Shown one piece after another: positions 5,218 through 29,800 of a DNA stretch of 33,694 nucleotides (positions are counted from its first letter, which is position 1; every line of letters begins with the position of its first letter). Source of the stretch: a virus. Both the position numbers and the translations under genes were made by a program. Below the pieces are notes generated by a model, which saw only the letters and a program-made list of their open reading frames with translations, was not told the DNA's origin and made no database searches. The stretch is taken from IMG/VR virus record IMGVR_UViG_3300030380_003967, positions 1 through 33,694 of that record. One strand, 5' to 3'.

Positions 5218-6668
5218 GGTATTCCAAATGGATTCTGCTCACTGAAGTCTAATATAGCATCAGCGGCAGTTTCAATATCAAAGTTGTCTGCATATGGATC
5301 GTTATTAATAGTTTTGTCTATGGTTCTCAAAACTCTAATAGCACCAGAAGTTGATCCAGTTAAAGTTTCTCCTGCAGAGAAACTTCCAGAAACTCCTGCA
5401 ACTTCAAGAACATTTGTATCAGCATCCCAAGATCTAACTCTAGCAGTCGTGTTGCTAGTGGATCCAGTTATAATTTCATTAAATACAAAGTTTCCTGTAT
5501 TTGATCCTGAAGGAGGAGCAGCTATAGAAATCGTAGGAGCAACAGAATATCCAATACCAGTATTAGTTAAATGGATATTTGTTATTGTTCCTCCAGCACT
5601 TACTATAGGAACTGCGGATGCACTAGCAGTAGTTACTCCTGCTTTAAATATTTCATTTGTAAATGTAATAACTGGATTGTCGATATATCCTCCACCAGCG
5701 TTTGTGACTGTGACTACGCCAACAATATCATCTCCAAGAACCGTTGTTGCAGCTGCACCACTACCTGTTCCATCAGTAGTTCTAAAAGTTACTGAAGGTG
5801 CAACAGTATATCCAGATCCAGGATTAACAACGTTAACTGCCTGCACAGATTGTAGTCTTTTATTCGCATTAAGATTGCAAACATTAATACCACCAATCAT
5901 TGTTGCAACACCTACAGCAGTTACACCACCAGCAGGCGCTGCAGAAACCTCAACAGTAGGAATCATTCCATATCCACCACCTCTATTGGTTACTGTAAAT
6001 GACCTTACACCGCCATTGACTAGTCCTGTGGTAGCAGTTGCCTGAACTGCAGTTCCAACTACTGTAAGAGTTTGAGTAATTCCCTGAATTGTACTAATAC
6101 CATCATCAGTCAATCCATCAGTTTCATCACCTAGCAACTCATTATCAATATCTTCAATTCCTGTTGCAATGACTTCATCTTGATACTGGAAGAGTTCGCA
6201 ATATAATTCATAAACATAGAGGTTCTGTAACTGATAATATGGTTTTGCATACTCAATATCCTTAATTTCATAAAGACGATCATCAAGTGGGAACCAGATT
6301 AAGTCTCCACCTTTTGGTCTGGTTGACAATTTAATATTTGATTGTCCTTGAATTAGAGGAGTGATATAGTTTTCGTATCTTTCTCTCGATATAATTAATC
6401 TTACTTCGTCTTTTGATTCAATACCAAACTTTGATAATACATCCCCTGCTCCAGAATATGCATCATAATTATCAACATATGCTTCAATAGGCAAAGCATT
6501 GTCAAATTTAGACTGAACAACTTCTCTAATGACAGTTTTCTCTGTCATATATTTTCTTGGAATGTAGAATATATCTACACCATACATCCTCAACTGTTCG
6601 TTGATTAAATCTTGAACAAGATTTTGCTCAGAAGAAGTGCCTTGAGTGAAAAAAGGATTTAAAACCAT
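5214..6668 (-). CDS. gp14: Neck protein gp14 with a large beta-repeat extension
   Basis: 484 aa; T4 gp14 is 256 aa. With gp13 it forms the neck that joins the packaged head to the tail. Residues 1-165 match the family pattern: MVLNPFF, a LINEQLRMYGVDIFYIPRKY segment and IWFPLDDRLYEIKDIEYAKPYYQLQNLYVYEL, in two parts here because of length limits. The C-terminal end, with an Asp-rich stretch and SEQNPFGIP (475-484), also looks native. Between them residues about 200-450 are a Gly/Thr/Val-rich insert with at least four TNxGxGY repeats, then a segment with TGSTSNTTARV and SAGETLTGSTSG. The start shares one base with the gp13 stop (TGATG), so the two are translationally coupled. The neck identity is firm; the insert's role is unknown. 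Confidence 0.88.
   Translation of the reverse strand: MVLNPFFTQGTSSEQNLVQDLINEQLRMYGVDIFYIPRKYMTEKTVIREVVQSKFDNALPIEAYVDNYDAYSGAGDVLSKFGIESKDEVRLIISRERYENYITPLIQGQSNIKLSTRPKGGDLIWFPLDDRLYEIKDIEYAKPYYQLQNLYVYELYCELFQYQDEVIATGIEDIDNELLGDETDGLTDDGISTIQGITQTLTVVGTAVQATATTGLVNGGVRSFTVTNRGGGYGMIPTVEVSAAPAGGVTAVGVATMIGGINVCNLNANKRLQSVQAVNVVNPGSGYTVAPSVTFRTTDGTGSGAAATTVLGDDIVGVVTVTNAGGGYIDNPVITFTNEIFKAGVTTASASAVPIVSAGGTITNIHLTNTGIGYSVAPTISIAAPPSGSNTGNFVFNEIITGSTSNTTARVRSWDADTNVLEVAGVSGSFSAGETLTGSTSGAIRVLRTIDKTINNDPYADNFDIETAADAILDFSEQNPFGIP
5514..5996 (-). repeat. Four GxGY beta repeats within gp14
   Basis: Residues about 225-385 of gp14 hold VTNRGGGYGMIPTVEV, VVNPGSGYTVAPSVTF, VTNAGGGYIDNPVITF and LTNTGIGYSVAPTISI. 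Each is a strand, a Gly-x-Gly-Tyr turn, a proline and another strand, 40-55 residues apart. The same unit occurs in gp8 and in both giant proteins. Confidence 0.8.
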
Positions 6669-7513
6669 CAGCCTATCATGTCAAGTGGTGGCAGTTCGTA
6701 GGTACTCGACATTACCTCTCTAATCTTATCTAGTTCTTTTTCTGCATCATCATATATTTGCCTACCATTCAATTCGATGCCACCTGGAAGTTTAACGCCC
6801 TGGAACTTGATAAGGTTTTGTCCCCATTGTCTTTTAATTAATGCTGTCAGATAACGTTTCAGGAAACCATCGTTATAAACTCTTGGAAAATCATTGGGAT
6901 TGAGTAATCTGTAACAATCAATAACCAAGTAATCATCTACACTAACGCTTGCCCAATCAATATCCAAGTAAAGTCTATCTGATCTAATATTAAATCTGAT
7001 CTGTTTCTGTGTTGTCAATGCAAAGTCGATATCCTCAAGATATCTCTTAGTCATTGCATAGGTTAAAATTTCTGTCGATCCAAAGTAGTAAATATCATTT
7101 AAAAATAACTGATACTTAATACTGAACATATTATTGGTGGTTGTATTAGAACCATCAAAGTGATATATCTTTGTTACACCTAAAACTTCTGGAGGAACTT
7201 GCAAGTAGTTGCTGTTCTCCTCAAACGAAAAGGATACAGACTGCCCATCAATCGTAGAACTTGCAGTTGTAGTTACAATACCGATGGGGTTACTTCCACC
7301 TCTACCTCTTCCTCTATCAATATCTGCTTGAGTTACCTTATACTTCAGGAACGTGTTGGTTGTCCCGTCATAGTCGCGTTCCTGGAACACCTGAAGCGCA
7401 TCATCCACCAAGTCATCAATCTGCTCGTCAGCAACGTTAATCTCCAATACAGGAGCACCTAGTTGCCTCTTACAGTACGCAATTAATTCCGATCTACTTG
7501 CTGGTTGAGCCAT
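6668..7513 (-). CDS. gp13: Neck protein gp13
   Basis: 281 aa; T4 gp13 is 309 aa. It is a head-completion/neck protein that acts with gp14. The N-terminus, SRSELIAYCKRQLGAPVLEI followed by VADEQIDDLVDDALQVFQERDYDG, is typical of marine T4-like gp13, as is the C-terminal segment with FLKRYLTALIKRQWGQNL and KLPGGIELNGRQIYDDA. The start is ATG at 7513 with GGTGA four bases before it and AGGAA slightly farther off. A late-type promoter lies in the short gap upstream, overlapping the preceding stop. The stop is shared with the gp14 start, so 13-14 form a coupled pair. Confidence 0.9.
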   Translation of the reverse strand: MAQPASRSELIAYCKRQLGAPVLEINVADEQIDDLVDDALQVFQERDYDGTTNTFLKYKVTQADIDRGRGRGGSNPIGIVTTTASSTIDGQSVSFSFEENSNYLQVPPEVLGVTKIYHFDGSNTTTNNMFSIKYQLFLNDIYYFGSTEILTYAMTKRYLEDIDFALTTQKQIRFNIRSDRLYLDIDWASVSVDDYLVIDCYRLLNPNDFPRVYNDGFLKRYLTALIKRQWGQNLIKFQGVKLPGGIELNGRQIYDDAEKELDKIREVMSSTYELPPLDMIG

Positions 7514-7535
7514 TTATTCACCAGTTTCCTATGTG

Positions 7536-7542
7536 TATTTAT
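7536..7542 (-). promoter_or_regulatory. T4-late-type promoter element ATAAATA
   Basis: Exact ATAAATA on the minus strand, overlapping the TAA stop of the 128-aa gene (7541-7539) and 23 bases before the gp13 ATG. Its placement is the same as at the other late-type elements and would drive the neck gene block. Confidence 0.6.
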
Positions 7543-7925
7543 GGTGCTGCCGATACTGCAGGAACTACCATTACATTACCATTTGCGATGGTATATAAAG
7601 TTGAACCACTACTAACTATTACGTCATACATATATCTTCCTTGTTCAAGACTCCTGGTTGAAGTAGAACCTAAAGAAATTTTTAGTTTACCTTCTACAGC
7701 ACTAGTAATCCCAACAGTAAATGACGTTGTAATTCCAAGAGTTGCTCCAATAGCAACACTTTTGGATATTGCGGCAGATCCAGAATAATCAGTTAGATCA
7801 AACGCAGTATTGGCATTATTGGTTACATTAAATGTAGTCTCAAAATCCGATCCTCCATAAATCGTCAAATTGACTCCAAAGGGAACTCCAGAAGATGGAT
7901 CGAAAGTGATATTTTTAGATGCCAT
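7539..7925 (-). CDS. Small beta-rich structural protein, upstream of gp13
   Basis: 128 aa, Thr/Ser/Val-rich, no signal peptide or membrane helix. The segments TTFNVTNNANTAFDLTDYSG, KLKISLGSTSTRSLEQGRYM and YDVIVSS follow a pattern I recognise from small beta-sandwich proteins of phage tails and fibres (a D-L-T-x-Y strand, then a G-R-Y-x-Y-D strand). It ends VVPAVSAAP. Its start overlaps the end of the 60-aa gene by 11 bases, so it belongs to the same transcription unit. A virion decoration or fibre-linker role is inferred from fold pattern and place only; no T4 counterpart is recognised. Confidence 0.75.
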   Translation of the reverse strand: MASKNITFDPSSGVPFGVNLTIYGGSDFETTFNVTNNANTAFDLTDYSGSAAISKSVAIGATLGITTSFTVGITSAVEGKLKISLGSTSTRSLEQGRYMYDVIVSSGSTLYTIANGNVMVVPAVSAAP

Positions 7926-8311: not shown

Positions 8312-8312
8312 A

Positions 8313-11300
8313 TTATGCGAGAGCGATTACTCTAAGATTTTTCAATTGAGGAACTAATTCTTGACTTGTTGATGTTAGCACAAGTTTAATTCTATAAGAT
8401 CTAAAGTTCGGAAGATCATCAATAGTGAATGTACGTTCAATGAAATCAGTATCATATGGACTATATCCTTTTTTGATTGAATTTTCTACAAAAGTATCAG
8501 GTCTTCCATCATTATTTGCCTCATTGATAATTTCACCATTAATATCTAAATTCAAATGTCCAGGGAATGGTTCAAAGATTGGTTCAAAACCAGGATCTGA
8601 ATTAATTGCATAGAATGCTCTAATATCAGCATCTGTAGGAATATGTGCATCTACAAGAATTTTGATTGAAGATGCTGGATTTGCGAGAGTTACTTCCTTA
8701 GATACGTATTGACATGCACTAGGATCATTAAAGAGTGTGTTCACTCTAGAATCAGTGGCATAGTCAACAACTTCAGAATTAACTCTGTTTGATACTGCAT
8801 AGACACTACATCTTTGAAGTTCAATTTGAGGAGTTAATTTAGTATTAGTTGTTCCAAGGAAAAGTCTCATTTGCATAGACTTATTACCCTCAATAGAATT
8901 TAACTTGCGATCTTCATTTACTTTAGAGAAGACTGCTCTTGGAGAATCAAAATAATTATTTGCATTAAGAACAACATCTTCAAATCCTACATTTACGTAA
9001 GGAATTTCATTACCACTAATACTCTGAGTAGTGACGGTTCTTATCTGACCAGATAAAGAAGTTCCTTCAACAGCAATATTGTGTATAGATGGTTTAATAA
9101 TTTCAAAAGGAATATTTTTAGTGGCCTTGACATTATCTCCACCAGTTGATTTTGATCTGTTAAGGAATAGTTTGGGTAATCCTACTCCAGTAGATCTGTC
9201 AATATTATCTGTGCTTCCAATAGTTCCAAATTTTTCAGACATATCAAGTTTGATATGATAAGAATCTAATGTTATTGGATTTGCAATGGTTACATCACTC
9301 AAATCGTGAGTTTTGTTAATTCTAGCAAGACTTACTCCTGCAAGTTCATACTTATAGACTGGTGTATCTATGGGATATGATTTTGGAGTTGTTCCTCTAG
9401 AAATACTTCCACCAATCGTTGATGCTGTTGTAGAGGTGTATTCAATAATTTCTTCACCAATCAAAAGTAATCCAGTATTAGTCAAACCAACACTAGCACC
9501 TTCAAAAGTAGAGAATACACTTCCTGTTCCAGCAGATACTTGAAGTGGATCAGTAGATGACTTGTCATAAGCTGCTGTCAATTTAGTTGGTTTAACATCT
9601 GGAAGAACTTTGAATATTCTTACAAAGTTGTCATCAAAATTCATTCCATGATTAACATGATTTACCTTAATATGAAGTCCATCAGAAATATTTACTATTC
9701 CATTTGATGGAATAGTAACATCTCCACCAGCATCAATGTTAAGTTCCCTTTCTGTATCTGTGCTATCAAAGAATCTAATGGTTCCAGCAGCTCCAGTAAT
9801 AAATTCTCCCTGAACATTACCAATTATTAACTGAGATGTGTGTCCAATACCAGTTAATGTAAATCTCGCATTCCGCCCAATACTTAATCCAGCAGGATCT
9901 GATGAAGATGGAAGTGGTGCATTTGCACTAATACTAACTACATCACCAACTTGATAACCATTACCACCAGCATTACTAATAGTTGCTGCAATAGCAACTC
10001 CATCTCTCACCGTAACGTTTGCAGTAGCTTCTGATCCATTTCCAGAAATTGAAATTAGATTTACTCCAGAATAAGTAATCTGCCCATCTGCTGGTGTATA
10101 TCCAACACCTGGATTAGTAATTGTTAACGTTCCCGTAGCACTAGCACCAACTCCGATCAGATCTCCTTGTGCAATTCTGTTTGAAGCAGTTCCTTGGAAG
10201 AAAGTATTACCAAGAGAATATCTAGCATCAGAAAGTGTCGTTCCTAATCCAACACGAATTTCATTTGAAATAACATTTAATGGATTTTCCATTAATGTGG
10301 CAATTTGTCTGTTACCCTCAGAAAGTTCTGGGCTATAAAGATCTACGGATCCTGATTCAACAAAGTCCGCTCTATACATGATAAACTTAAGATCTTCCCA
10401 CTGACTTGCTTCCCAAGTAGATGCGTTCTGTGATTTAAATAGAGATCCAAGAGTTGGTTGGTTGGAGATATAGGAATCTGTTAGGATATCATTTTCACCA
10501 ACTCTAGAAATATAAACACTATACTTAGTTGAGTTTGAAATCAAACAGATGGCATATTCTTTACCACCCTCAAGATAAACTGGAGCAGCAAACTCAAAAG
10601 TAGTTGCCACAGTTCCATCAGTTGAAGTATTAACATCTCCTGGGAAAAGAACTACTTCAGATAGATCAAAATACTTGGCAGTTGGGAAACCATTTTCCAT
10701 TGTTCTAATCTGCATTCTGACTGGAGTATTTCCGTCATCTTTTGTGCGGAAGAAAACATCACACTTTGTTATGAATATACCTTCAGGATCTTCTTCTTGA
10801 TCAACCAAGAAAGATTGTGCAAGAGGATCATACCAACCAACAATAGATTCGCTTGTAGTTGCCTGTCCAATGTTTCTAGTAGCAGTAACCTCGGTGTTAA
10901 CAGTTCTATTAACAAGTTGATCTTCAAAGAGTTTCTTTTGTTCAATTTTTGCATTCCTAATAGAAAGAATTTGATCTTGAACTGTCTCTAGGATACCAGA
11001 AGTTGGATATGCTTCTTCACCAACAGTGGTAGCAGCATCTTGATCATTATCTGGATCATTTGTTAATGTAAATACGTTGGTTCCAGTTTGGAAATTAGGA
11101 TTATCTCCATTACTTGCATCAGGAATAAAGAAACTTCCTAATAAAGCTGAAGATCTATCAGTAATAAGTCTGACATTTGTTACTTCTGCTTCTGCTCCAC
11201 TTGTTTGTCCGGTCAGTTTCATTCCTGTCTGGATATAACCAAAGAAATCTCCTTGTGGTTGATCTGCAAGAGAATACGTATCTACATTCAAAGTGGTTGA

Positions 11301-15989: not shown

Positions 15990-15995
15990 GATTCT

Positions 15996-17549
15996 TTAGA
16001 ATTGCAAGATAACTTTTATGTCTTCTTTTTGGTTTGACGATCTTGTAATCGAAGGTCTATTATCTACGTATATAATATTGCCAGAATGCTGTTTTACTTC
16101 TGGGGACGCAACACCTGTAGTGAAATCCATTCCAAGATAATATACACGATTATTTATCGTCGTTTTGTTATCGCTAAATGTACTATCAATACTCAAAGGA
16201 AGTCCTGTTGTGGGAGTAATTGCTAGCGATCCAGTTCCACTTGGACTTCCAGTAAAATCTTGTAACTGATAACCATATGTTGGGTTAGTAACTCCAATTC
16301 CAGTGGATGTGAATCCAGCCACAGTTCTATCTTGCCAAAGTTTTAAAACTCCAGTATTCTGATCATAATTTACGACCCTGCCAACTGCTGTAACTCCTGT
16401 TCCGACTGACTGAACAACAAATGAATCGGCAGTAAAAGTTGCCTCACTAAATCCAACACCTGTTAATTTTAAAGCGGTAACTGCACTTACTTTGTCTGCT
16501 GTTAGTATTGATCCTCCAGCTGGGGAAAGTGGATTTTCTACAACACCAATTCTTGCAAATTGATTACCAGTAATAAAGTCTGGATTCTCATTATCACTCT
16601 CAATTCTTGAATACATTAGTACACTATATGCACCAAGTTCTCTATAAATGTCAGCACCATGCCCACCTTGTGGAGTTATAATTACTTCAAATGTCGGTCT
16701 AGTCGTTCCTGCTGGAATTCCAGCAGATTCAAAATCAAGAGTTCCAAAAGTATATCCAGATCCCTGAGCAGATATAGAAACTTCGTCAATTTTTGAATCT
16801 CCATCAATAGTAACAGTGCATTGTGCTCCTGTACCATCACCACGAATAGGAACTCCAGTATATGTTGTATTTGCTGTTCCTAATCCAACACCACGATTAG
16901 TTACCGTTACAATTTTAATAGAACCATCTACAGCATTTTCTCTGACTAAAGAAGTGTCATTACTAGTACTCCAGTCTGTAGGAACTGGCATAAAATCTGT
17001 AGAATCAAATTTTATAATATCTGCTGGTTTGATAGTATAAAGATATTTCCAAATGTATCCATCACCGCTAGTTCCAGCCGCCTTTGGTTCTAAATCAGTA
17101 AAAGTTGGTTCATCCAGAGATGGTCTACCGAGAGTATTTTCTGGATTTGTTCCGTTTTGCAGACAAATGTAAACTCTGTAATCACTGTTTAAAACATAAA
17201 AATTTGAGTTATAAAGATTAGTAGATCCAGAAACAGGAGCTGTGTTTGATCTACTATAATTATGACGATACATGTCAAAGGTAGTTCCAGAAGACCAAAA
17301 TCTTTTTGGAACCACTTGTCTAACATCAGTGGAATTAATTCTCTTCAAAGCAATCATTGTATTCCAATAATCATTCTCCTCATCAAAATTATCTTTTGGT
17401 GAAGGAGGATTATCATTCCATGTAGAGGAATAGTCTGTCGGATTTGGAAGTCCGACAAAAGAATAATAGGAATTACTGGCATTAGCAATTCCTGCGACAA
17501 AATTTTTCGCATTTAATATTCTTACTTGATCAGTTATGATAGCAGCCAT
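15996..17549 (-). CDS. gp8: Baseplate wedge protein gp8
   Basis: 517 aa; T4 gp8 is 334 aa. gp8 is a wedge subunit that joins the gp10-gp7 arm in T4 baseplate assembly. The N-terminal part, with SYYSFVGLPNPTDYS, DNFDEENDYWNTMIALKRI and RQVVPKRFWSSGTTFDMYRH, and a later VYICLQNG with GDGYIWKYLYTIKPADIIKF, is the marine T4-like gp8 pattern. Residues about 214-277 carry beta-repeat units (VTNRGVGLG and ISAQGSGY). It follows the gp7-like gene after 35 bases that contain a late-type promoter. The C-terminal region, with YYLGMDFTTGV and IKVILQF, is intact. Confidence 0.88.
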   Translation of the reverse strand: MAAIITDQVRILNAKNFVAGIANASNSYYSFVGLPNPTDYSSTWNDNPPSPKDNFDEENDYWNTMIALKRINSTDVRQVVPKRFWSSGTTFDMYRHNYSRSNTAPVSGSTNLYNSNFYVLNSDYRVYICLQNGTNPENTLGRPSLDEPTFTDLEPKAAGTSGDGYIWKYLYTIKPADIIKFDSTDFMPVPTDWSTSNDTSLVRENAVDGSIKIVTVTNRGVGLGTANTTYTGVPIRGDGTGAQCTVTIDGDSKIDEVSISAQGSGYTFGTLDFESAGIPAGTTRPTFEVIITPQGGHGADIYRELGAYSVLMYSRIESDNENPDFITGNQFARIGVVENPLSPAGGSILTADKVSAVTALKLTGVGFSEATFTADSFVVQSVGTGVTAVGRVVNYDQNTGVLKLWQDRTVAGFTSTGIGVTNPTYGYQLQDFTGSPSGTGSLAITPTTGLPLSIDSTFSDNKTTINNRVYYLGMDFTTGVASPEVKQHSGNIIYVDNRPSITRSSNQKEDIKVILQF

Positions 17550-17575: not shown

Positions 17576-17584
17576 TACTAAAAA

Positions 17585-20500
17585 TCATGCAAATTTTTTG
17601 AACCTAATATATCTGGTTCTATAAACCTTCGATGAAGTAGATATACCAGTAAATTCATTTGTTCCTATTCCAGACAAGGTGTGTGCTGGATATGAAAGTT
17701 CCTTAGTTCTAGCATTTAAAATAATTTTACCCCAGGAGTACTCTCCAAGGAATGCTCCTGTTGAGAATCCAGAAACTCCATTTGGATTTAGATTAGTATT
17801 CACGGTTACTTTAGCAACACTAGTGGTGACTCCAGCAATTATTTGAGTTGCTATTCCAACAGAATTTACAACATATACATTATCAAGGTATTCAGATCCA
17901 ATTCCAGTAATTGTGGTGTTGTTGGTTCCAAGAGCATTAATACTAGTTGATGCAGTTCCCAAGTTAGAATTTCTAACCGTAAAGAAATCTCCAATAGCCA
18001 ATCCACTTATAGTTACAGCGGTTCCAACTAAATCAGTGTTCCTCATGACAGAATCAAGTGGAATATGAAGATGGAATGCGATTCCAGTTGATCCAACACC
18101 AACGGAAGTTGTTCCCAATCCAACAATTATTCCAGAATCTCCAGAATATCCAGAAGTTATAACATTACAAGACTCTGTTTGCTGTGCAGGAGGTCCTATA
18201 AGAACTAATGGTGGATTAGTTTGAGTATATCCAGATCCACCGTTAGTAATCGTAATTCCAGTAACAACACCATTAGTAATTGTTGCTGTTGCAGTTGCTG
18301 TTGTGGATCCTATACCAACACTTACATCAGGTGTTGTTGAATATCCAACACCACCATTGTTAATTGTGATTGAGGTAATAGTTCCAGCAGAAGAAACTAC
18401 AGCAGTTGCTGCTGCTCCAGTAACAACCACTGGATTTACTAATCGTATTCCTTTTTGAATAGTATTTCTAAATGTAGGATCTATATTTTCATTATTAAGA
18501 TCAAATAGAGGTCTCACTCTATCAACATAGATTATGGTAGATCCAATACCAACAGGACTAATAATATTTGCAGTTGGATTAATAACAGGTTCATAAATTT
18601 CTCTGTCTTTGCCAACTTCCTTACCATTAATAATCTTATCTTGAGTTTGTCTACACCATGTTATTGGTCTTTCAAAAGTAGTATCAGTAACATTTCCTGG
18701 TCCAAAGTATGGAAGAGTATTGCACTTATCAACATTTGTAATAGAACTAATTGTTCTAGCATTTTCTTGCTGATATGGTTTTTGACCCTGATCTGGATCA
18801 TAATTTAAAGTAACTTCATCTCCAAATTTAATAGTTTCAATAACTTCTCTCTCAATAACATCTAAATCATCTCCACTTCCTTTATAGAAAACAATTCTAA
18901 GAGTGTCATCAACCTTTAATGGTTCAGAGAAAGTTATTTGAGAACCACCATTAAACTGATAAGATTCTCCAGGACGCTGAAGTATTTCATTTACAAATAC
19001 TAACAGTAACTGGTCAAGTTCAATCTTCGATCCTTTTGATTTGTTAATAGATATTGGGACACCAGCTTTGAGTAATGGGAAATCAATTCTGGTGCCATTA
19101 ATAAATTCAGAAACATCATCAAATGTTTCTAGAACACCTAAAGACCACCCACTGAATTCATCATTAATAACTTTTTCAATTTCAATCTCAAATACGTTTG
19201 AAGAAGAGAATGATGAAGTGGTAGGGATTCCAATTGTTCCCCCGATAGCAACCGTTAATCTATCCTCATTCGCATAACCAAATCCTGTATTTGTAATTTC
19301 AAAATCAATAACACTAGATCCTTGACCAACTACAACATCAATCTTTGCCTGTGTTCCCAGTCCAGTTGTTCCTGAGACATATTGCAGAGGTAAATTAGAG
19401 TATGATAGTGGACTATCAATAACTACAAATGGTGGATTAGTTGACGTATATCCAGATCCTGGATTTGTAATGGTTACGCCAGTAATATGACCACCTACAA
19501 TAGATGCAGTTCCAATGGCAACTAGATTTGAACCACTAACACTTGAAGTGCCAATACTGACATTAACAGATGTTTGAATCCCTGCTCTATACCCAGATCC
19601 AGAATTACCGATAGAAACTGAAGAAATTGTTCCCAATCCAGAAACAATTGCTGTTCCACCTGCAGCAACTAGTGGTTGATATCCAAGACCTTCTTGAGAA
19701 CCAACAGAAACGATAATTCCTCCTTTTGGAAAACTAGAAATTCCAACATCATTTGTTATCGTTCTAGATAATCCGGTAAAAGTAATAGAAGTAATTCCAG
19801 TGTTTTCGGATAGAGTAAAGTTATTTGCTCCGCCAGTAACTTGATATATGTCATTAATTAATACAATCGCACCTTCATTATCAATTCCAGTTACATTATT
19901 ACCATCAGACTCTAAAGTAAATTCATTTTCTATACCATTAAATTGATTTGAAATATCATCAAAAATGTAGTTCTTGTAATATGTTTCATTAGTGGTATCT
20001 GGCTGAGCCGTTCTCATGAAACTTCTTCCTTGGAAGGTAGAACTTGTTGTTATACCTACATAATCTCTCTGATCAGGTGGATTAGTTGTAGATCCAATTG
20101 GAGTATTTCCATATGGTGCTTCAACAAAATTCAAAGAATTTCCAACAATGTTGTAATTTCCTGTAACTTTTGTTACTAAATCACCAGTTGAAAGTCCAGT
20201 TTGGATAGTTGTTCCCATCCATCCTCTGCGAACCACAACTCTATTGGTAGTTCCTATACCAACTCCATCAACTTTCATTATTTCGTTTTCGACCTTAAGT
20301 AAGTCCCCACCAAAAATAGAATTTAAACTAGTTAATTCAATAGTATTATCTGTGCTTACTACAGCGTCTTCCAACGTTGTTGTAACAGCAGTAGAAACAA
20401 TTGGAGACTGAATAAGATTGTCAATAGCAACTAATACTTTTGGATTTTGATTTGTTGCAACAAACGAATGAGTAGCTCCAATTCCAGCAGCACCGACCGA

Positions 20501-23500
20501 AGTTAAGTTAAGAACTTTAGGCACAGACTTCAGAGCATCTTCTGCACTTCTAGAGAGTTGAATGGTATTATCATTAACTTTAACTGCAAATACTCCCGTT
20601 GAAGGAAGTAAATTAGTTGTAACTCCAGTTACAGTAAATGTAGTCTGAGCAATACCAATTGATCCTGTATTTCCAATACCTGGTCCAACATATGCAATTT
20701 GTTCTCCAGTTACATAGAAGTGATTTGGAATTTCAATAGTATCTGAGGTAAGATCAATTACACTTCCAAAGAATGTTCTTTCAAAGATGTTGTCATTTTT
20801 GTGAGTTAAATTAAATGATCTCTTGATGTCTCTTTCAGTTCCAGTGTATTCGCCATATCCAGTCTCTATTGTTCCATTATTCAAACTAATTACGTCCTTC
20901 GTATCATCTTCAATCCTAAGAGCATTGGTATATACATGAACAGTTGCATCAATTCCTGATATTGGTGTAAAGAGAACTTGAGTAGTTGCAGCAAGTCCAA
21001 CAGAGTTAGCAATTACTCTAGATCCAAAAGTTCCAAGACCAGAATGAGTTTGAATATTTGCAAACTCAGTGTCAAATGTTTCTCCAGTTGATTCTCCTTC
21101 AATATGATCATCTACGACAAAATATTCTAAGAATTCATACCGATCATTTGTAGTATCATGAACTTGAATCATAAAATATCCAGCATCATATTTGTCTATC
21201 TCAGAAGAGATATGACTTGGATATTCTGCAACAACATTTTCAGTTGGTGATCCAGATGATGCAATATCAGTCATTGTCGATTGCAATCTGGCATGTTTTA
21301 GATCAAGTGTAGAGATGCCAGAGGTTATGGAGGACAATCCAACGACAATAGTATTAACTACTGCATTTGTCCCTATTCCAGACGGATTGAAATCAAGTTT
21401 AATATTAGAACCATCCAAACGTGCAGTATAAGTTCCAAATCCAGTTGCGCTTATTCCTCCAAAAGAAGTAGTTAATTTACCATATTCTAAGATAGATACG
21501 TCTGTTCCATCATGAACGATGTTTAGTTCTTGAGCCTCAAACTCATTTGAATTAAATGTTGCAGTGTTTCCAAAAGATGGGTTGCTAACATCTGGAGCAA
21601 TTTCAACAAGGACCTTCAAGGAGTGATATGTATTACCAATACTGACAATATTAGCAGTAGTTCCAGAACTTACGATTACACTTTCTGAGTCAATTAAGAC
21701 TCCTCCAATAGAAGTGGATCCTGTGCTAAGATAATTATCATTTAAATTATAGGAAATTGTTGTAATATCATAATCATTTACTGATGATCTATTTGGGTAG
21801 AATAATAACTGACCTTCTGTGCCAGATATTGAGAAATCAAAAGATCCTTGATCGTATACAGTTTCTATTCTTGCATATTGGTTAAGATATCCAAAAGTTC
21901 CATCATGAATAAGATCAACAATTAAAGCCTGCCTTTCTTGAGTAAATCTTTTGTCTCTCAAATAAGTAAAATACTTTCTAAATCTAAAATCTTCTAAATT
22001 GAAATTATTAAGTACACTAAAAGCAGTTGCTCTAGGACTATTATTAAATTCTGGACTTATATCATCAATAGAAAGAACTCTGTTTCCAAATGACTCCGTA
22101 AAGTCGATTAAGATTTTATTATTAAGAAAAATCTCATCAGAAAGAATTGTACCGTCAGAAAGATTTAAATTATTTTCCGTAGCAATATCAAAATCAAATA
22201 CGCAATTTGTATCAATAAATCCATCCAAACTACTTACAATAGTTACATCAGTCAATTCGGTAGAAATTCCAACCTGTATTGATTGATCTAGATTCGTTGA
22301 TTCAATTTGAAGATCACCAAACTTTTTATACCCAAGAGTATGATTTACGGAAGATACAACATTTTTCCAAGTATCAAATGGAACAGTACTCTTTAATGAG
22401 TAAGAGAAATTTTGATAATAAAAACTATCTTGCAATCTTTGTATATTATCATTTAAGAATCCTGATCCGGTTTGATTACCACTGAATATTTGAGATGAAA
22501 CATCAGTCTCAAAATAAGATTCATATGAAGTTACTTTTGAAGCAACTCCAGAAAGTTCCGAAGTAAGTCCTTTTACAATATCTCCTGATACAAAACTATC
22601 GGATGAAAGAACTCTAAGAATCTTTGTTGTTTTATCCCAACTTTGAACAACACCTTCCTTTCCATTTGTAGTAACTTTCTCTCCACTAAGATAATCGGCT
22701 GTGGATACTTCTATATCAAAGGTTGGGAAATTCTTCTCCGCTGATATTACTCCAGAAGAATTAATAGCATCAAATGTACCAGGAGTTTCTCCATCATTCA
22801 ATTCATCACCTAAATTGTAAGTGACTGATCCAAGTCCTCCGAGATTTGTGGTAATTCCAGTAAGAGTGAATAGTTTATAATTATAATCTTTGGAATTATA
22901 TCCACGAGCTGTTGAACCAATTCCAATACTTGTATTTTCAACTATTATCCTATCACCAACTTCAAATGGGAATGATGTACTAAATCCAACTGACAGATTT
23001 AAAGTTACCTCTTTAGTAACGGTATTAAATCCAACAGTGCTAATTCCAACTCCATTAGTATTTTTTATTGGCAATACTGATGGAGTGGCATTATTAATTC
23101 CCCTAGTATTACTTAAAATAGTTACTGTTGAATCTCCTAAAGAATACTTAGTTGAAAGATCAGTAATTTGATTCCCAGTCTTACCGTCGAAGAAAATTAA
23201 TTCTGGTGCTGAAGAGTATCCTCTTCCTCCAGAAACTATAGAAATATTTTCAATTTTAGCAAAAGAATCTACCGTAATAATTTGTGGAAGAGATGCACTT
23301 GGTTTTAATGTTTTATCTGTTGGGAAATCATAACCAATATCTTCAATTTTTACTTTTTCAATAATTCCAATATCTTCAGTAGTAGATACTAAATCACCTT
23401 TTACTCCATCAATAGTGTTAATAGATACAATAGAAGGTAATGTAGTATAATTTTTTCCAGAACTGGTAACTTCTACTGCAGCTATTGGTCCAGATGTATG

Positions 23501-26500
23501 GGTGCAATCAGTTATATAAGATAAATCAGATAAAGTAGATGTGTATGAATCTGCTTCAGGAGCTTCTGTTAGATTAAATGTAAAGAAGTTAGTTCCTGCG
23601 ATAGAAATTCTTCTATTTCCATTATAGACGCTGTTTTGAGTTATTATGGAATTATTATTTAAGATTTCAGAATCTTTTATTATTGTTAATTTTTCTTCGG
23701 GAAGATTTGTATTAGAAACTGGATCAAGTGAATAGTAAAGTCTCTCTGGTGTAGTTTTTCCAATAGAAACTCTTACACTAGCAGAAGAAGATCCGGAAGA
23801 TCCTGTTCGAGAAACACTAAATGTTGATGATGACTGATCAGTTTCCCAACGATTTGTATATTTGTCATCTAGATAGAAATTCAGTTTAAATGCAGAATAT
23901 TGAGTAGATTGTTGAGTAAATCCTAAAGAAGAATCTGAAATATCAAAGTCTAATATTGAACTTCTATAAGCTTTAATTGAAGGGTTAACTAATCCAAACT
24001 CGCCAAATGATGTACTTGCAATTCCAACGATATTTGGTATTAAATTAGTCGAATCATAATAAGTATTAGATAATTTAATATTATCATTATCAACTTTTAC
24101 AATATAATAAATTTTATCATTCTGTAAACCTTGACACGGTGCAGTTGATGAATGAATTACCTTGTCTCCACTTTCATAACCATGATTGGTTATGCCGATA
24201 GTATTAGTAGTGCTATTAACACCTACAGCACTGAATGTTTTTATACCAACTAATGCTCGTCTGTGAGTATCATTGTACTTTACAACATATGTTGTTGCAA
24301 ATGATGGATTGACATCGATATCAACCCTGTGTTCTCCGCGAATACCATGATTTACATCTGTTGTTACAGTTACAACTCTCTTTATAACATCAGCAGTTAT
24401 ATTACTATAGTTTGTTGCAAAACTATGATTTGTTCCACTACCAATACCTGTAAAGAATAACGTCGTAGTTGTATTTCCTACTCCAACAAATCCACCAGTA
24501 GAACCAAGTCCAACTCGTTGAGTTGCAATACCAATTAGGTCATTTGAAATTTTAGCAACAAAAACATCCTGCCCATCAGATAGAGTTTTAGCAACACCCA
24601 CACTACCAACTTCATTATAGACAATACCCTGTCCACCATTTGGAGAATATGTTAGTGTATCACCTGTTTCTAGTCTATGATTTTTTATGTAAAGGGATTT
24701 AATGGGAACCGCAAGAGTACTAGATCCAAAAGTTGTTCCAAGACCAACGGTGTTTAATCCAAAAGAACTAAATTGTAACACAGATCCAATTCCAACAGCA
24801 GTAGTACCAAGACCTACTGTTTCTGTTGGGTTAAAATATATTTCTCGATTTCTCTTAAAATCATACTTTGTTTTAAATCCAGATTTAAATGTAAATCTTC
24901 TTGGGTCTTCAGATAAAATAGATCCAACAGTATGAGATACTCCAACAGTACCATCTACTTCTCGAAGAACTTTAAATCTAGAATTATCTCTATCTACATT
25001 TAAAACTTTTACTCTCTCAGTACCAATACCCAAAATATCATTTGGTACAATATTTGATGCAATCAAACTTGATGATACATTGAAGAAAGTTACTACTCCA
25101 GTGATACTAGTGTTTCCAACAGCAACTCCAGTAGTACCCAATCCAACAAGCGAGAATCTCTCACTTGAAACTCCTATTGAATATGACCCTTCAATTTTTG
25201 ATGATGTTGTAGAAATACCCGTAATATTAACAATATCTAATGATTGAAAATTGTGTGGGGACTCTGATTCTATAATATATGTTCCTCTTTTAGTTGAGGG
25301 AATTAATTCAACATCAGATAATTTATTTGTAGAAGCACTAATACTATTGACAGTTTTTCCTTTTAATCTGGAGATTCTTCCAGCTGCTCCAAATCCAGTT
25401 GCATCTTCATCAGAAAAGTTTAAAGTTTCTCCGATTCTGTAATTATCACCAGAACTTTTTATTTCTACTCTAGAAACTTTTCCTCTATTTGTAGATATAA
25501 TTTTTCCTGTTTGAGATAAATTGTTTGGAGAATATATGTAAGGATATTCGATATTATCTTCTCTCAAATTATATGAGATTGTATTCCTACACCAATTGTT
25601 TGATTCAATATCAAAATCATCTTGATTAGAAGATTTTTTAAAGTTGAACTCATTTGGAGTAGAATAATAAGTATCACCTAAAACATATGGGAATTGAGGA
25701 AGTTTATAATTTTCAAATAGTCCAGAAGACTCTATACTATCAGGATTAACTGTAACAAAATAAGCATAAGTTCCATTTGGATATTCTGGTGTTATACAAA
25801 ATCTTCCATTATTCCTATCAAGATAATCATTGTCATTATTTTCATGATAAGTAAAATCTTCTACAAAAAATCCTAATGGAAAAGTTGATACTGGCGGACC
25901 ATCTGTACGTGATGAATTAAGTTTGTAACTAGACTTCATCAATGTAACTATTCCACCATCATTATTAGAATATCCATATGGTCCATAAATTGGATTTCCA
26001 TCGTAAGCCCAACCAATAATTGGGGAATGATCAGTAAATTCTGTTTCTTGAGAGTTAACTAGTTTTAGATCTGGTTTTCCATATAAAGTATCTCCACCCT
26101 CTGAAACAGAATAAACCATTTGTCTTAATGATCTTGGTGCATACAATGAATAGCACTGTAATCCATACTGATCACTTAAAGATTTTTGTAAAACAATATC
26201 ATCATTTTTAATGACATCATTAACGTATAATTTTTCAAATAAGTTTACTCTCCATTTTTGAATTTGAGGAATGAAAGAAAAGTCTCTCTCTGCAGTGGAT
26301 ACTTCAATACTTACATCTCCAGAAACGTATCCTTCTCCTGACTCTACAACTCTTACTTCCTGAAGAGTTCCATTTATTAAAATTGGAGTTAAGATGCATC
26401 CAATTCCAGAACTAGATATTATTTCTAAATCTGGAATAGATGTATAATTAGATCCAATATTTTCTATGATAACCTCTATGATTTTTCCATCAGAGGAAAC

Positions 26501-29500
26501 AACAGGTTTGACCTGAGCGTTTTTACCAGATACTACAGATATGTTGGGTAATTTATTGAAATTAATAATATTATTAGTTCCATATCCAGATCCTTGATCA
26601 GATAAATGTATCGATGTTAGTTCTCCTCTAAAAATAGGTTGAACTTCAGCCTTATATGCACTTGATTCAATTCCTGTAACTGTTGATATTCCAACAGGTC
26701 CCTCTACAGTAACAGTTATTGGGGGATAATTAAAAATTTGAGTTCCCGTGCCAGTGCTAGTTAAATTAACATATTGATTTGTTCTATAGAAGAAAGTTTT
26801 ATCAGTTGATCTAATTTCAGATAATTTAAATTGATTATTATCAATTACTGTAACATAGTAATCAGTGTCATTGTTTAGTCCACCAATCGCACTTGTTCCA
26901 GCAGAATATCTTAATGTCTCTCCAGATCTATAATCATGATTTTCTATAGTAATGATGTCGGATGAAGTATTAATACCAGTGGAAACAACACTTCTCTTTT
27001 TATTTTCATAACCAGTTCCATTATTAACAATGTTTATTGAATCAATGACAGATTTTCGCGATGTGCATTCTAAAGTATGTCTTCCAATACCATGAGAAGA
27101 TAAAACAACTGTGTTAATACCAACAATTGCTTGCTGTAAAGTGTCATGTAACTTAATTGTGGTTGCATTAACAACTTCTGCAAAATATGTAGAATTGGTA
27201 GATAATCCACCAACTATTTTTTGAGAATTTGGTTTATATATTAACTGCTCACCATTTCTAAATTTATGAAAAGTTGAAAATCCAATGGTAGAATCATCAG
27301 CACCTGTAGAAACTTTAGCAGAATTTGAATCCGAGAAAAATTCTACAGAATGAGAAATTAATTTTGTGTTTACTAATGCTCTAGCATCTTTTCCATTTCC
27401 ACCTGTTATTGAAACGATAGGAGTATCTGTAAAATCAAATCCTCTATCAAGAATTTGTATTTCTCTTAGGTTTCCATTAACAGCAAGAAATCCTGTTGCA
27501 CCAGAACCAACAGGATCTTCTATTTTTAATAAAGGAGGATTAATTATATCAAAACCATTTCCACCAGAAGTTACTTCAATTTTTTCTACTTTTCCAGTAT
27601 GAACTAAATCTTTTGATTTATAATTTAAAATTTCAACACCGTTAATTAAAATTCCAGTAGCTCCTGGAGAAGTTTTAACTTTAGTATTACTATCAATTGG
27701 TGTGCTTATTTCTCTATAAAGTCTTTGTGAATCTACAACTTTACCTTTTGTCTCTACCAGTTCTATAGTATTATCTGCAATGGTAGTTGATGTTGGTACA
27801 GATGCAAAATTTGATGTATATAAATTAGCAGGAGATTTGGCTAATTTTATGTTATTATTATCTACTCTAAAAATATAATAAACTCCTTCACCACCAGTTT
27901 CTCCACCAAATAGTGAAGATATGACAGAACTTTCAACTATATCTTGTCCATCAAGGCTAACGGTTGTTTCAATTTTTTGCGGAGTATAGTATACAGATTC
28001 TCCTCCATAAAATCCATGCTCATTTATGGTTATAGTTTCTCCAAGAAATGTACCACCAAATGTTTTTACAGATTTTGATGCAATGAGAGGTACATCTTTA
28101 TATGAAGGTAATGAGTTTGATGCAACTAAAATTGAATCTCCATATTGTTTTTTATAAATATTCTGAATATTTGCATTAAATTTATTAAGATGAGTAAAAT
28201 TTGAAGAAGTTACTTTTCTCAATTTTCTTGTCAAAGTATAACTTGCTAAAACATTAAGTGTTCCAGAGGTTTTAATTGTTATAACTTTGTCGGTGATAAT
28301 ATCAAGAACTTCTGCATCAAAAGAATCTGCTCCAGTTAGAGAATCTATAGTTACAGAATCTCCAAGAGATAAGTAATTTTCTTTGTTTAAAGTTAATTTA
28401 TAAGTTTTTGGCGAAACACTACTAATTAACTCAACTTTATTAATTGAATATTTTACTGGATTACTATACAACCAATTTTTAAACTTAAATGTATCGTCTT
28501 CAATACCAAGAGTTTTTATATTAAATTGATCTCCTGTTTTATAATCAAATATACCATCTTGTTTTGAAAATCCAGATAAAACAGACGTAAGACGAACTTT
28601 AACGTCAATATCGGAAGGTTCTACTGCAGCAAAATTTTCTGTAGTTAAAGTGTTACCATCAATCAAATCATCGGTAATATTAGTGCAATCTAAAAATTGA
28701 GTTATTGTTTTAGATGTATAAGAAACAATGCCTGTTGTATTTGTGATGGAATTTGGATATGTTACATAGATTTCTCCAGAATTGGGAAATCCTATTGTTG
28801 AATCTACGTCAATAAAAGTAGATCCAGCAGAAACAGTTCCAATTATATGAGTTTTTGGAGCAACTTTAAATTTACCTGAGGTAGATCCAAGAACTCTAAT
28901 ATCTCTATTATATCCATCATCAAAAGAGAGTTTATAAAAAGTTTTTGCAGTTCCTGCATTTATTGTTTCAATATCATATATTGAAGTATAAGTTTCATCA
29001 TTATCACCTTGGAATATAGTTCTACTTTCTAGATCTGAAGGATTGCCCTCAATTGATTCTACTAAAAAATTAGAAGTTACTAAGTTTCTAGCATTTGAAG
29101 GTGTGAACAGATAATCTCTTGGTTTTGTTATTTCAACATTTACACCATAAAGAGCTTTAAATAAAATTTTATAAGATTCATCTGTTCCTTTACTTGTGTA
29201 AAAGTCTTTTGCCTGCTTTATGAAAATATTTTTATTCAAATTCGATGCAAGAGGTCTATCAGATAACCCTGGCAGAAGTTGAATTTTAGTTTTATTTAAA
29301 AATTCTTTTAAGAAAAGGCAGCTTAAATTTTCAATAGTCGCGCCATCTGTATGTTCAGCAGATGAAGTAGAATTAAAGACAAGATCCCCTTGATTGGTAT
29401 CGGACTTATATGAAGTTACTCCAACAAATCCCCTAATGCATCCAGTGAAAGAAGAGGATGTTTTTCCAGTGTAAGTTATTACCTCATCACCTATTCTTAG

Positions 29501-29800
29501 AAGGCCATATGAGTCTGGAAAATGATTTGTTCCGTCTGGAGATTCTGAAAGATTTACATTTATTGTTGTTGTAAATTCATCAATATCACCATTCAAAACT
29601 ATTTCATGATTTAAAGTAGTCTGCTCATCAACCTTTACATATTGATCGATATTTTGTATTAAATCAACAGGGCCACTTTTGTATTCCTGACCAATATAAT
29701 ATTGCTTTAAAAATTCAGAGATAAGAGGGAACTCATTCTCAACATAAGTTGGGAGCTGGTTCTTGACGATGTTGCTAAACTTGATTCTTGTTTCTGCCAT
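17585..29800 (-). CDS. gp7: Giant gp7-position baseplate wedge protein with YHYH-type domain
   Basis: 4,071 aa, about four times T4 gp7 (1,032 aa). gp7 begins wedge assembly with gp10 in T4. The N-terminus (KNQLPTYVENEFPLISEFLK, residues about 13-32) and the 150-250 region (FLNKTKIQLLPGL, then KDFYTSKGTDESYKILFKAL) look like marine T4-like gp7-position proteins. So do ERPITWCRQTQDKIINGK and the C-terminal GEYSWGKIILNARTKEL. A YHYH-type domain lies near 1200-1330, with SPIIGWAYDGNPIYGPYGY and NGRFCITPEYPNGTYAYFVT. The rest is small beta modules: at least 15 GxGY units, six H-x-x-G...KLS units (for example near 588, 840, 949, 1703, 1868, 3019) and two RG modules. The frame is uninterrupted. Orthology to T4 gp7 rests mainly on position between gp6 and gp8. 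No strong ribosome site is seen. Confidence 0.85.
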   Translation of the reverse strand: MAETRIKFSNIVKNQLPTYVENEFPLISEFLKQYYIGQEYKSGPVDLIQNIDQYVKVDEQTTLNHEIVLNGDIDEFTTTINVNLSESPDGTNHFPDSYGLLRIGDEVITYTGKTSSSFTGCIRGFVGVTSYKSDTNQGDLVFNSTSSAEHTDGATIENLSCLFLKEFLNKTKIQLLPGLSDRPLASNLNKNIFIKQAKDFYTSKGTDESYKILFKALYGVNVEITKPRDYLFTPSNARNLVTSNFLVESIEGNPSDLESRTIFQGDNDETYTSIYDIETINAGTAKTFYKLSFDDGYNRDIRVLGSTSGKFKVAPKTHIIGTVSAGSTFIDVDSTIGFPNSGEIYVTYPNSITNTTGIVSYTSKTITQFLDCTNITDDLIDGNTLTTENFAAVEPSDIDVKVRLTSVLSGFSKQDGIFDYKTGDQFNIKTLGIEDDTFKFKNWLYSNPVKYSINKVELISSVSPKTYKLTLNKENYLSLGDSVTIDSLTGADSFDAEVLDIITDKVITIKTSGTLNVLASYTLTRKLRKVTSSNFTHLNKFNANIQNIYKKQYGDSILVASNSLPSYKDVPLIASKSVKTFGGTFLGETITINEHGFYGGESVYYTPQKIETTVSLDGQDIVESSVISSLFGGETGGEGVYYIFRVDNNNIKLAKSPANLYTSNFASVPTSTTIADNTIELVETKGKVVDSQRLYREISTPIDSNTKVKTSPGATGILINGVEILNYKSKDLVHTGKVEKIEVTSGGNGFDIINPPLLKIEDPVGSGATGFLAVNGNLREIQILDRGFDFTDTPIVSITGGNGKDARALVNTKLISHSVEFFSDSNSAKVSTGADDSTIGFSTFHKFRNGEQLIYKPNSQKIVGGLSTNSTYFAEVVNATTIKLHDTLQQAIVGINTVVLSSHGIGRHTLECTSRKSVIDSINIVNNGTGYENKKRSVVSTGINTSSDIITIENHDYRSGETLRYSAGTSAIGGLNNDTDYYVTVIDNNQFKLSEIRSTDKTFFYRTNQYVNLTSTGTGTQIFNYPPITVTVEGPVGISTVTGIESSAYKAEVQPIFRGELTSIHLSDQGSGYGTNNIINFNKLPNISVVSGKNAQVKPVVSSDGKIIEVIIENIGSNYTSIPDLEIISSSGIGCILTPILINGTLQEVRVVESGEGYVSGDVSIEVSTAERDFSFIPQIQKWRVNLFEKLYVNDVIKNDDIVLQKSLSDQYGLQCYSLYAPRSLRQMVYSVSEGGDTLYGKPDLKLVNSQETEFTDHSPIIGWAYDGNPIYGPYGYSNNDGGIVTLMKSSYKLNSSRTDGPPVSTFPLGFFVEDFTYHENNDNDYLDRNNGRFCITPEYPNGTYAYFVTVNPDSIESSGLFENYKLPQFPYVLGDTYYSTPNEFNFKKSSNQDDFDIESNNWCRNTISYNLREDNIEYPYIYSPNNLSQTGKIISTNRGKVSRVEIKSSGDNYRIGETLNFSDEDATGFGAAGRISRLKGKTVNSISASTNKLSDVELIPSTKRGTYIIESESPHNFQSLDIVNITGISTTSSKIEGSYSIGVSSERFSLVGLGTTGVAVGNTSITGVVTFFNVSSSLIASNIVPNDILGIGTERVKVLNVDRDNSRFKVLREVDGTVGVSHTVGSILSEDPRRFTFKSGFKTKYDFKRNREIYFNPTETVGLGTTAVGIGSVLQFSSFGLNTVGLGTTFGSSTLAVPIKSLYIKNHRLETGDTLTYSPNGGQGIVYNEVGSVGVAKTLSDGQDVFVAKISNDLIGIATQRVGLGSTGGFVGVGNTTTTLFFTGIGSGTNHSFATNYSNITADVIKRVVTVTTDVNHGIRGEHRVDIDVNPSFATTYVVKYNDTHRRALVGIKTFSAVGVNSTTNTIGITNHGYESGDKVIHSSTAPCQGLQNDKIYYIVKVDNDNIKLSNTYYDSTNLIPNIVGIASTSFGEFGLVNPSIKAYRSSILDFDISDSSLGFTQQSTQYSAFKLNFYLDDKYTNRWETDQSSSTFSVSRTGSSGSSSASVRVSIGKTTPERLYYSLDPVSNTNLPEEKLTIIKDSEILNNNSIITQNSVYNGNRRISIAGTNFFTFNLTEAPEADSYTSTLSDLSYITDCTHTSGPIAAVEVTSSGKNYTTLPSIVSINTIDGVKGDLVSTTEDIGIIEKVKIEDIGYDFPTDKTLKPSASLPQIITVDSFAKIENISIVSGGRGYSSAPELIFFDGKTGNQITDLSTKYSLGDSTVTILSNTRGINNATPSVLPIKNTNGVGISTVGFNTVTKEVTLNLSVGFSTSFPFEVGDRIIVENTSIGIGSTARGYNSKDYNYKLFTLTGITTNLGGLGSVTYNLGDELNDGETPGTFDAINSSGVISAEKNFPTFDIEVSTADYLSGEKVTTNGKEGVVQSWDKTTKILRVLSSDSFVSGDIVKGLTSELSGVASKVTSYESYFETDVSSQIFSGNQTGSGFLNDNIQRLQDSFYYQNFSYSLKSTVPFDTWKNVVSSVNHTLGYKKFGDLQIESTNLDQSIQVGISTELTDVTIVSSLDGFIDTNCVFDFDIATENNLNLSDGTILSDEIFLNNKILIDFTESFGNRVLSIDDISPEFNNSPRATAFSVLNNFNLEDFRFRKYFTYLRDKRFTQERQALIVDLIHDGTFGYLNQYARIETVYDQGSFDFSISGTEGQLLFYPNRSSVNDYDITTISYNLNDNYLSTGSTSIGGVLIDSESVIVSSGTTANIVSIGNTYHSLKVLVEIAPDVSNPSFGNTATFNSNEFEAQELNIVHDGTDVSILEYGKLTTSFGGISATGFGTYTARLDGSNIKLDFNPSGIGTNAVVNTIVVGLSSITSGISTLDLKHARLQSTMTDIASSGSPTENVVAEYPSHISSEIDKYDAGYFMIQVHDTTNDRYEFLEYFVVDDHIEGESTGETFDTEFANIQTHSGLGTFGSRVIANSVGLAATTQVLFTPISGIDATVHVYTNALRIEDDTKDVISLNNGTIETGYGEYTGTERDIKRSFNLTHKNDNIFERTFFGSVIDLTSDTIEIPNHFYVTGEQIAYVGPGIGNTGSIGIAQTTFTVTGVTTNLLPSTGVFAVKVNDNTIQLSRSAEDALKSVPKVLNLTSVGAAGIGATHSFVATNQNPKVLVAIDNLIQSPIVSTAVTTTLEDAVVSTDNTIELTSLNSIFGGDLLKVENEIMKVDGVGIGTTNRVVVRRGWMGTTIQTGLSTGDLVTKVTGNYNIVGNSLNFVEAPYGNTPIGSTTNPPDQRDYVGITTSSTFQGRSFMRTAQPDTTNETYYKNYIFDDISNQFNGIENEFTLESDGNNVTGIDNEGAIVLINDIYQVTGGANNFTLSENTGITSITFTGLSRTITNDVGISSFPKGGIIVSVGSQEGLGYQPLVAAGGTAIVSGLGTISSVSIGNSGSGYRAGIQTSVNVSIGTSSVSGSNLVAIGTASIVGGHITGVTITNPGSGYTSTNPPFVVIDSPLSYSNLPLQYVSGTTGLGTQAKIDVVVGQGSSVIDFEITNTGFGYANEDRLTVAIGGTIGIPTTSSFSSSNVFEIEIEKVINDEFSGWSLGVLETFDDVSEFINGTRIDFPLLKAGVPISINKSKGSKIELDQLLLVFVNEILQRPGESYQFNGGSQITFSEPLKVDDTLRIVFYKGSGDDLDVIEREVIETIKFGDEVTLNYDPDQGQKPYQQENARTISSITNVDKCNTLPYFGPGNVTDTTFERPITWCRQTQDKIINGKEVGKDREIYEPVINPTANIISPVGIGSTIIYVDRVRPLFDLNNENIDPTFRNTIQKGIRLVNPVVVTGAAATAVVSSAGTITSITINNGGVGYSTTPDVSVGIGSTTATATATITNGVVTGITITNGGSGYTQTNPPLVLIGPPAQQTESCNVITSGYSGDSGIIVGLGTTSVGVGSTGIAFHLHIPLDSVMRNTDLVGTAVTISGLAIGDFFTVRNSNLGTASTSINALGTNNTTITGIGSEYLDNVYVVNSVGIATQIIAGVTTSVAKVTVNTNLNPNGVSGFSTGAFLGEYSWGKIILNARTKELSYPAHTLSGIGTNEFTGISTSSKVYRTRYIRFKKFA
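18195..18370 (-). repeat. GxGY beta-unit pair in the giant (C-terminal)
   Basis: Encodes INNGGVGYSTTPDVSVGIGS and ITNGGSGYTQTNPPLVLIGP, with an Ala/Thr strand between them. The second shares most DNA bases with the copy near 19410-19480 (both read plus-strand tatccagatcc), so the units are similar as DNA as well as protein. Confidence 0.75.
19245..19615 (-). repeat. Three GxGY beta units in the giant
   Basis: Encodes IGNSGSGYRAGIQTSVNV, ITNPGSGYTSTNPPFVVI and ITNTGFGYANEDRLTVAIGG in succession, spaced about 45-60 residues. They are the same unit as in gp14. Confidence 0.75.
25900..26050 (-). other. YHYH-type domain core in the giant
   Basis: Encodes residues about 1250-1300, with SPIIGWAYDGNPIYGPYGY. 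The G-W/Y-A-x-D-G-x-P-I-Y-G-P core is the signature of YHYH domains; the later TPEYPNGTYAYFVT corresponds to the C-terminal part. The namesake Y-H-Y-H is not kept (here TYAYF), so any metal-related role of the family may be lost. Confidence 0.65.
26310..26605 (-). repeat. Three GxGY-type beta units next to the YHYH domain
   Basis: Encodes LSDQGSGYGTNNIINF, IENIGSNYTSIPDLEI and VVESGEGYVSGDVSIEV, ending just before the YHYH-type region. The central copy has G-S-N-Y in place of G-x-G-Y, showing divergence between copies. Confidence 0.65.

Follow-up and report, generated by a model that had tools for sequence, protein, structure and literature searches.

Why does the same short glycine-rich beta motif recur in four different virion proteins of one phage? 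The window analysed here is a stretch of 33,694 nucleotides, positions 1 to 33,694 of IMG/VR virus record IMGVR_UViG_3300030380_003967, which holds 35,652 bases. Its genes, all on the minus strand, encode gp25, gp6, a giant of 4071 aa in the gp7 position, gp8, DUF4815/VrlC, a 128-aa protein, gp13, gp14, gp15, the terminase small subunit and a tail fibre, and in both gene order and content they match those of the cyanophage Bellamy (Kyanoviridae). A preliminary description of the sequence had noted a TNxGxGY-x(3)-P unit between strands in gp14, gp8, DUF4815 and the giant and had taken it for a mobile mini-domain of baseplate and neck genes. The reading at which we arrive, and to which we give a probability of about three in four, is that two units would make up an Ig-like domain that is inserted in virion proteins, protrudes from them and adheres weakly to host sugars, and that its spread is old.

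All four proteins do carry the unit, with DUF4815 as the weakest case. GxG[YF] occurs 4 times in gp14 where 0.39 occurrences are expected after shuffling, 12 times in the giant (3.1 expected), 3 times in gp8 (0.33) and twice in DUF4815 (1.2), so that in DUF4815 the motif by itself shows no enrichment. One of the three gp8 motifs, at 263, falls within a unit, and the other gp8 unit reads GVGL. The proline three residues past GxGY is present in most units, as had been described, but is absent from those of gp8 and DUF4815. A profile built from the gp14 units only was run against the proteins of the window and matched the giant (14.3, 12.8, 12.3 and 10.1 bits), gp8 (11.9 and 6.8 bits) and, weakly, DUF4815 (7.8 bits), while the best shuffled sequence in 50 proteome equivalents gave 7.3 bits and the best reversed sequence 1.8 bits. 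Alignment of the gp14 units with giant units from the window, Bellamy and P-SSM2 using hhalign resulted in a probability of 96.8 (E 2.9e-10, score 42.6), compared with at most 8.8 (score 14.4) for 200 column-shuffled controls. The unit profile matched nothing in the whole genome of T4, which includes Gly-rich beta fibres of its own. These comparisons support a single homologous unit in the four proteins.

In gp14 the units lie at aa 205-256 (5901..6056, 41.7 bits), aa 273-310 (5739..5852, 35.2 bits), aa 304-351 (5616..5759, 25.9 bits) and aa 346-394 (5487..5633, 33.3 bits). They are followed by a second beta-module, module B (aa 388-447, 5328..5507, 91.5 bits), which is common to gp14, the giant and DUF4815; the giant copy is at aa 2366-2416 (22553..22705, 21.7 bits, best control 6.2). 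In gp8 the first unit spans aa 206-241 (16827..16934, 13.7 bits; 11.9 bits with the gp14-only profile) and the second aa 241-267, probably continuing to around aa 292 (16749..16829, 11.2 bits). As had been stated, the T4 proteins are much shorter, with 256 aa for gp14 and 334 aa for gp8 against 484 and 517 aa here. The first DUF4815 unit (aa 1954-1993, 10011..10130) is weak at 6.0 bits, or 7.8 bits with the gp14-only profile. The second (around aa 2001-2050, 9840..9989) is below threshold and was recognised by eye and from 0.1 bits with the gp14-only profile; its Bellamy copy reaches 6.8 bits. A third common module, 'IGDEE...RG..GT' of gp15, was dropped with a best match of 5.9 bits against 4.9 for the controls.

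For the giant, the preliminary count of at least 15 units was too high: 12 are above background, with a further weak candidate at aa 1155. They comprise a first pair at aa 735-808 (27377..27598, 9.9 and 18.2 bits), an isolated short unit at aa 917-931 (27008..27052, 5.6 bits), a second pair at aa 1058-1134 (26399..26629, 9.1 and 16.4 bits) with perhaps a third unit at aa 1143-1160, two separated units at aa 2102-2124 and 2178-2208 (23177..23497, 9.1 and 12.4 bits), a run of three at aa 3378-3528 (19217..19669, 7.1, 25.6 and 6.9 bits) and a last pair at aa 3794-3872 (18185..18421, 34.1 and 30.3 bits). The giant also has a YHYH domain within aa 1256-1355 (25736-26035, 89 bits). The name gp7 rests on position only, and T4 gp7 is held to be absent from these phages (PMC7029224). 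The gp14 PHROG profile matches the giant with E 2e-22. In HTVC008M (NC_020484) the 1016-aa protein in the gp7 slot, I899_gp055 (33435-36485), is annotated 'head closure Hc2', the name given to gp14, probably owing to modules that it has in common with gp14.

The structure of gp14 aa 200-450 was predicted with AlphaFold2, mostly with pLDDT of around 83-92 (10-residue means) and with dips near 262-267 and 381-390. The model has three strands per unit. Each unit would be half of a small beta domain, consisting of b3 (ATATATV), b1 (VTSITITN) and b2 (PTVTIS), with GxGYxxxP as the turn that joins b1 to b2. A model of giant aa 3361-3885 was poor overall (mean pLDDT 62.9, pTM 0.31). Its last pair, modelled at pLDDT of around 73-86, nevertheless has the same strand order as gp14. 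In Foldseek searches against the PDB the core of the gp14 model matches T4 gp14; the unit region of the gp14 and giant models has no significant match, and Dpo31, discussed below, is not among the 50 matches listed. For the giant segment (window 18146-19720) several domains that anchor the tail fibres of podoviruses were also listed (the N-terminus of T7 gp17, 7boz, probability 0.96; 7ey9; 8dsp), which with E values of 0.17-0.8 is only a hint; the match presumably falls between the two unit clusters of this segment.

It is apparently the pair, not the single unit, that acts as the functional block. After similar proteins had been removed, run lengths were even in 79 cases and odd in 21 for cellular proteins, and even in 81 and odd in 27 for viral contigs. 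These counts are samples, taken from the best 80 loci of each scan, and were fetched with a two-unit query (75 aa, derived from the window with consensus letters) that favours pairs, so that runs of three or more are the fair part of the test; here the excess is modest, with 57 even and 32 odd over both sets. Of 84 two-unit runs, 68 carry an additional b3 at one end and not at the other, leading in 36 and trailing in 32, and the order of the six strands takes two circularly permuted forms, (b3 b1 b2)x2 or (b1 b2 b3)x2. Such permuted layouts are expected of a closed domain with neighbouring ends, and we infer that the two units close into one domain. By eye, the layout in the window is b3-first in gp14 and b1-first in gp8 and DUF4815. 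Against pairing, three units in a row and a lone unit occur in the giant, odd runs are found elsewhere, and the gp14 counts reflect few independent events. Spacing between pairs did not differ consistently from that within pairs, and this idea was dropped.

Searching the PDB sequences with a single gp14, giant or 18-unit cellular protein revealed no relative of the unit. With a profile of the pair there was one match, to aa 439-505 of Dpo31, the tailspike of the marine podovirus Carin-1 (E 1.2e-5). Both Dpo31 units score 12.6-22.5 bits with two profiles, compared with at most 11.4 for 1000 shuffles. In the accessible text of PMC13317679 the domain concerned, D3* (aa 434-536; PDB 28lx, 28mg, 8ck1), is an inserted, protruding domain termed Ig-like; it was soluble when expressed alone but did not crystallise alone, its fold coming from the full-length structure, and it is distantly similar to sugar-binding domains with low DALI Z scores of 2.9 and 2.8. 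D3* is a recognisable sequence homologue of the unit pair, although it is found in a beta-helix tailspike and contains one pair only, and the same text draws no link to the proteins described here. Going by this homology, D3* probably shows how a unit pair looks.

Across 416 complete gp14 genes from IMG/VR contigs and cultured phages, unit counts are 0 (86 genes), 2 (83), 4 (241), 8 (5) and 10 (1) and never odd, irrespective of which of three thresholds or two profiles is used. The corresponding lengths are 230-297, 372-376, 456-547, 644-663 and 852 aa. The N-terminal core of the window gp14 fits the T4 gp14 family PF11649 (aa 2-176, 95.7 bits against a cut-off of 25), with the units outside the matched part. 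It also aligns with T4 gp14 itself (PDB 9mkb, 9lu4) over aa 2-168 (E 2.7e-21), but the T4 protein has neither the units nor module B and ends in a short C-terminal arm. Other cyanophages, namely S-PM2, Syn1 and S-CAM1, likewise have a gp14 of 292 aa with no units. In gp14 of the S-RIM32 type (372-376 aa; S-RIM32, S-RSM4 and ACG-2014e) two units lie inside module B, while in the window, P-SSM2 and others four units lie ahead of it. These two sites mean that there were at least two insertions. In L473, L481 and L495 (546-547 aa) the four units are accompanied by around 80 extra residues past module B.

Within the S-PM2 clade a tree of gp14 aa 1-170 requires nine changes between 0 and 2 units, at least six of them forced by well-supported branches, whereas the tree of the part behind the insert requires only two. 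The block is therefore passed between phages together with its C-terminal flank and is not inserted anew each time, as expected of homologous recombination. The suggested mobility of the unit thus holds on an evolutionary time scale, as a change of genes and of sites, with five gp14 forms, two insertion sites and exchange of one form between phages.

The range of the unit also goes beyond baseplate and neck, which, like its pairing, had not been foreseen. Ten Kyanoviridae genomes were searched (Bellamy, P-SSM2, S-T4, S-PM2, HTVC008M, S-SM2, S-8S53, S-RIM32, Syn1 and S-CAM1) and contain 3 to 21 unit matches each, in several genes (two in HTVC008M); nine have at least 8 and HTVC008M has 3. When bacterial and archaeal genomes were scanned, the unit turned up across many phyla. 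Its carriers include tail-tube and capsid proteins of prophages, SusD, multicopper oxidases and YCF48-like proteins among others. In a Niabella SusD_RagB protein aa 375-629 cover 172 profile positions with 83 residues extra, and the units are at 456-525. Similarly, in the lambda-type tail tube (Phage_TTP_11) of Pseudomonas graminis, the gene for which presumably sits in a prophage, aa 12-248 cover 151 positions with 86 residues extra, and the units are at 119-195. The tail tube of Pseudomonas phage PseuP_224 (27229-27504) is 50.5% identical to the unit-pair part of the P. graminis protein over 79% of the query. Pairs or larger runs are also found in or beside PSII_BNR, multicopper oxidase, DUF2589, DUF3383, XM1_gp53/cement, PilY1, FGE-sulfatase and gp8-like proteins. 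The block is inserted into unrelated folds, is promiscuous over many host families and is optional within a host protein, since gp14 with and without it occurs in one clade.

No model in the Pfam and NCBIfam libraries covers the unit, even in long arrays. There is no Ig model among the Pfam matches (E up to 1) of the window gp14, gp8, DUF4815 and giant or over the unit arrays, the Big_7 match of L520 at aa 688-756 being outside the units. A tblastn search of phages with an idealised two-unit query gave zero matches, probably because of low-complexity masking, and a literature search by motif letters gave nothing relevant among the matches listed.

How might such a block come to be in these proteins? 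Two units would form one compact Ig-like domain with its ends near each other, and near ends would allow the pair to fit into a surface loop of an unrelated protein and leave the host fold unbroken. The domain would have entered several virion genes long ago and would since have been inherited at fixed places, as in the giant and gp8, or exchanged by recombination with flanking sequence, as in gp14. In the particle it most likely protrudes as a decoration, in as many copies as the symmetry of neck and baseplate dictates. In T4 the C-terminal region of gp14 joins gp15 upon tail attachment (PMC12270204). Because the units are located between the gp14 core and the C-terminal tail they would ring the neck, presumably facing outwards if the arrangement is that of T4, and six gp14 copies, as in T4, would place 24 units or 12 domains around it. 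The window gp15 (4158-5177) has 339 aa; gp15 is around 332-361 aa in Bellamy, S-SM2, P-TIM68, S-B43 and S-8S53 and around 266-280 aa in P-SSM2, T4, HTVC008M and phages with a 0- or 2-unit gp14. Since gp15 in T4 pairs with the C-terminus of gp14, the two proteins may have lengthened together.

It would seem likely that the job of the domain is weak, many-fold adhesion to host-surface sugars, by analogy with the Ig-like domains of other phages, for which carbohydrate adhesion was proposed by Fraser et al. 2006 as cited in the accessible text of PMC5292684. Sugar binding by the pair is plausible and has indirect support from the weak DALI similarity of D3* to sugar-binding domains; nothing found here points to a lattice-forming surface, which had been suggested as the alternative. 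Like the promiscuous Ig-like domains of T4 Hoc, the lambda tail tube and T5 pb10, the pair is an optional beta domain on many unrelated virion proteins. It differs from them in having no Pfam Ig match, in consisting of two similar half-units with a GxGY turn, in its two circularly permuted layouts and in being common also inside non-phage bacterial proteins. It is best described as an unnamed relative of these domains. Domain mosaicism of phage proteins, as set out in the accessible text of PMC10684548, likewise has fragments shared between functional classes, baseplate included, but that text mentions no comparable module in the neck, gp8 or gp14.

Three other accounts bear on what the units are and how they came about. 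That they are unrelated Gly/Thr-rich beta stretches, alike through composition, is hardly credible: the motif is short, the sequences are simple and the DUF4815 motif counts are not above chance, but the gp14-only matches exceed locally shuffled and reversed controls, the hhalign probability is far above its controls, T4 yields no match at all and the strand order is conserved in the gp14 and giant models. Recent origin, or upkeep by gene conversion, had been suggested from copies said to be alike at the DNA level. A single pair does stand out, 18198-18272 and 19419-19493 in the giant with 76% identity over 75 nt, and there are no others. Giant unit 3855 is also slightly nearer to 3448 in the same protein (score 119) than to the same-place Bellamy unit (116), a near-tie. 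For the remaining 10 of the 11 giant units tested, the best match is the unit at the corresponding place in Bellamy and not another tested unit of the giant. Where residues agree between copies, the codon is also the same in 617 cases, against 580 expected from codon usage, and all 84 close gp14 relatives found keep four units. The spread is therefore old, and recent copying in this genome is very unlikely, with hints of later exchange for that one giant pair. The even gp14 counts could also be due to chance, through a handful of founding events, and to the profile, with no folding rule behind them. Perhaps four events would account for counts of 0, 2, 4, 8 and 10, and odd runs do exist, but cellular and viral proteins also have the even excess, most pairs gain the third strand at just one of their ends, the extra length in SusD and the tail tube equals two units, and D3* is two units in one domain; we consider this account improbable.

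The main rival on function is that the pair binds no ligand and works as a structural spacer or cement, giving stiffness to neck and baseplate. In its favour, conservation in the unit region falls mostly on the turn residues (G, Y and P), as would be expected of a scaffold, and tail-tube, DUF3383 and cement-type proteins are among those that carry the block. A role as virion cement makes no sense, however, for SusD, multicopper oxidase, FGE-sulfatase and YCF48-like proteins, within or next to which the block also lies; gp14 of close phages lacks it; and D3*, in the text available, protrudes from Dpo31 and has distant similarity to sugar-binding domains. A spacer is unlikely, though less so than the accounts above, and we favour the protruding, weakly adhesive domain.

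The unit is widespread yet nameless in the libraries searched, and can mislead annotation, as with the 'head closure Hc2' label and the gp14 PHROG match to the giant. With the pairing and the insertion sites known and a crystal structure available for a homologue, the fold of the unit and possible sugar binding can be tested directly, and the occurrence of 0- and 2-unit gp14 in otherwise close cyanophages provides a natural experiment. More tentatively, and with somewhat less than an even chance, the doubled three-strand half-unit in its two permuted forms may be an unnamed family that travels between phages and bacteria and enters surface loops of unrelated proteins, in the phage neck, baseplate, tail tube and DUF3383 and in cellular SusD, oxidases and YCF48-like proteins. 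If this is true, viruses and their hosts would have in common an adhesion module of general use that can be added to a protein.
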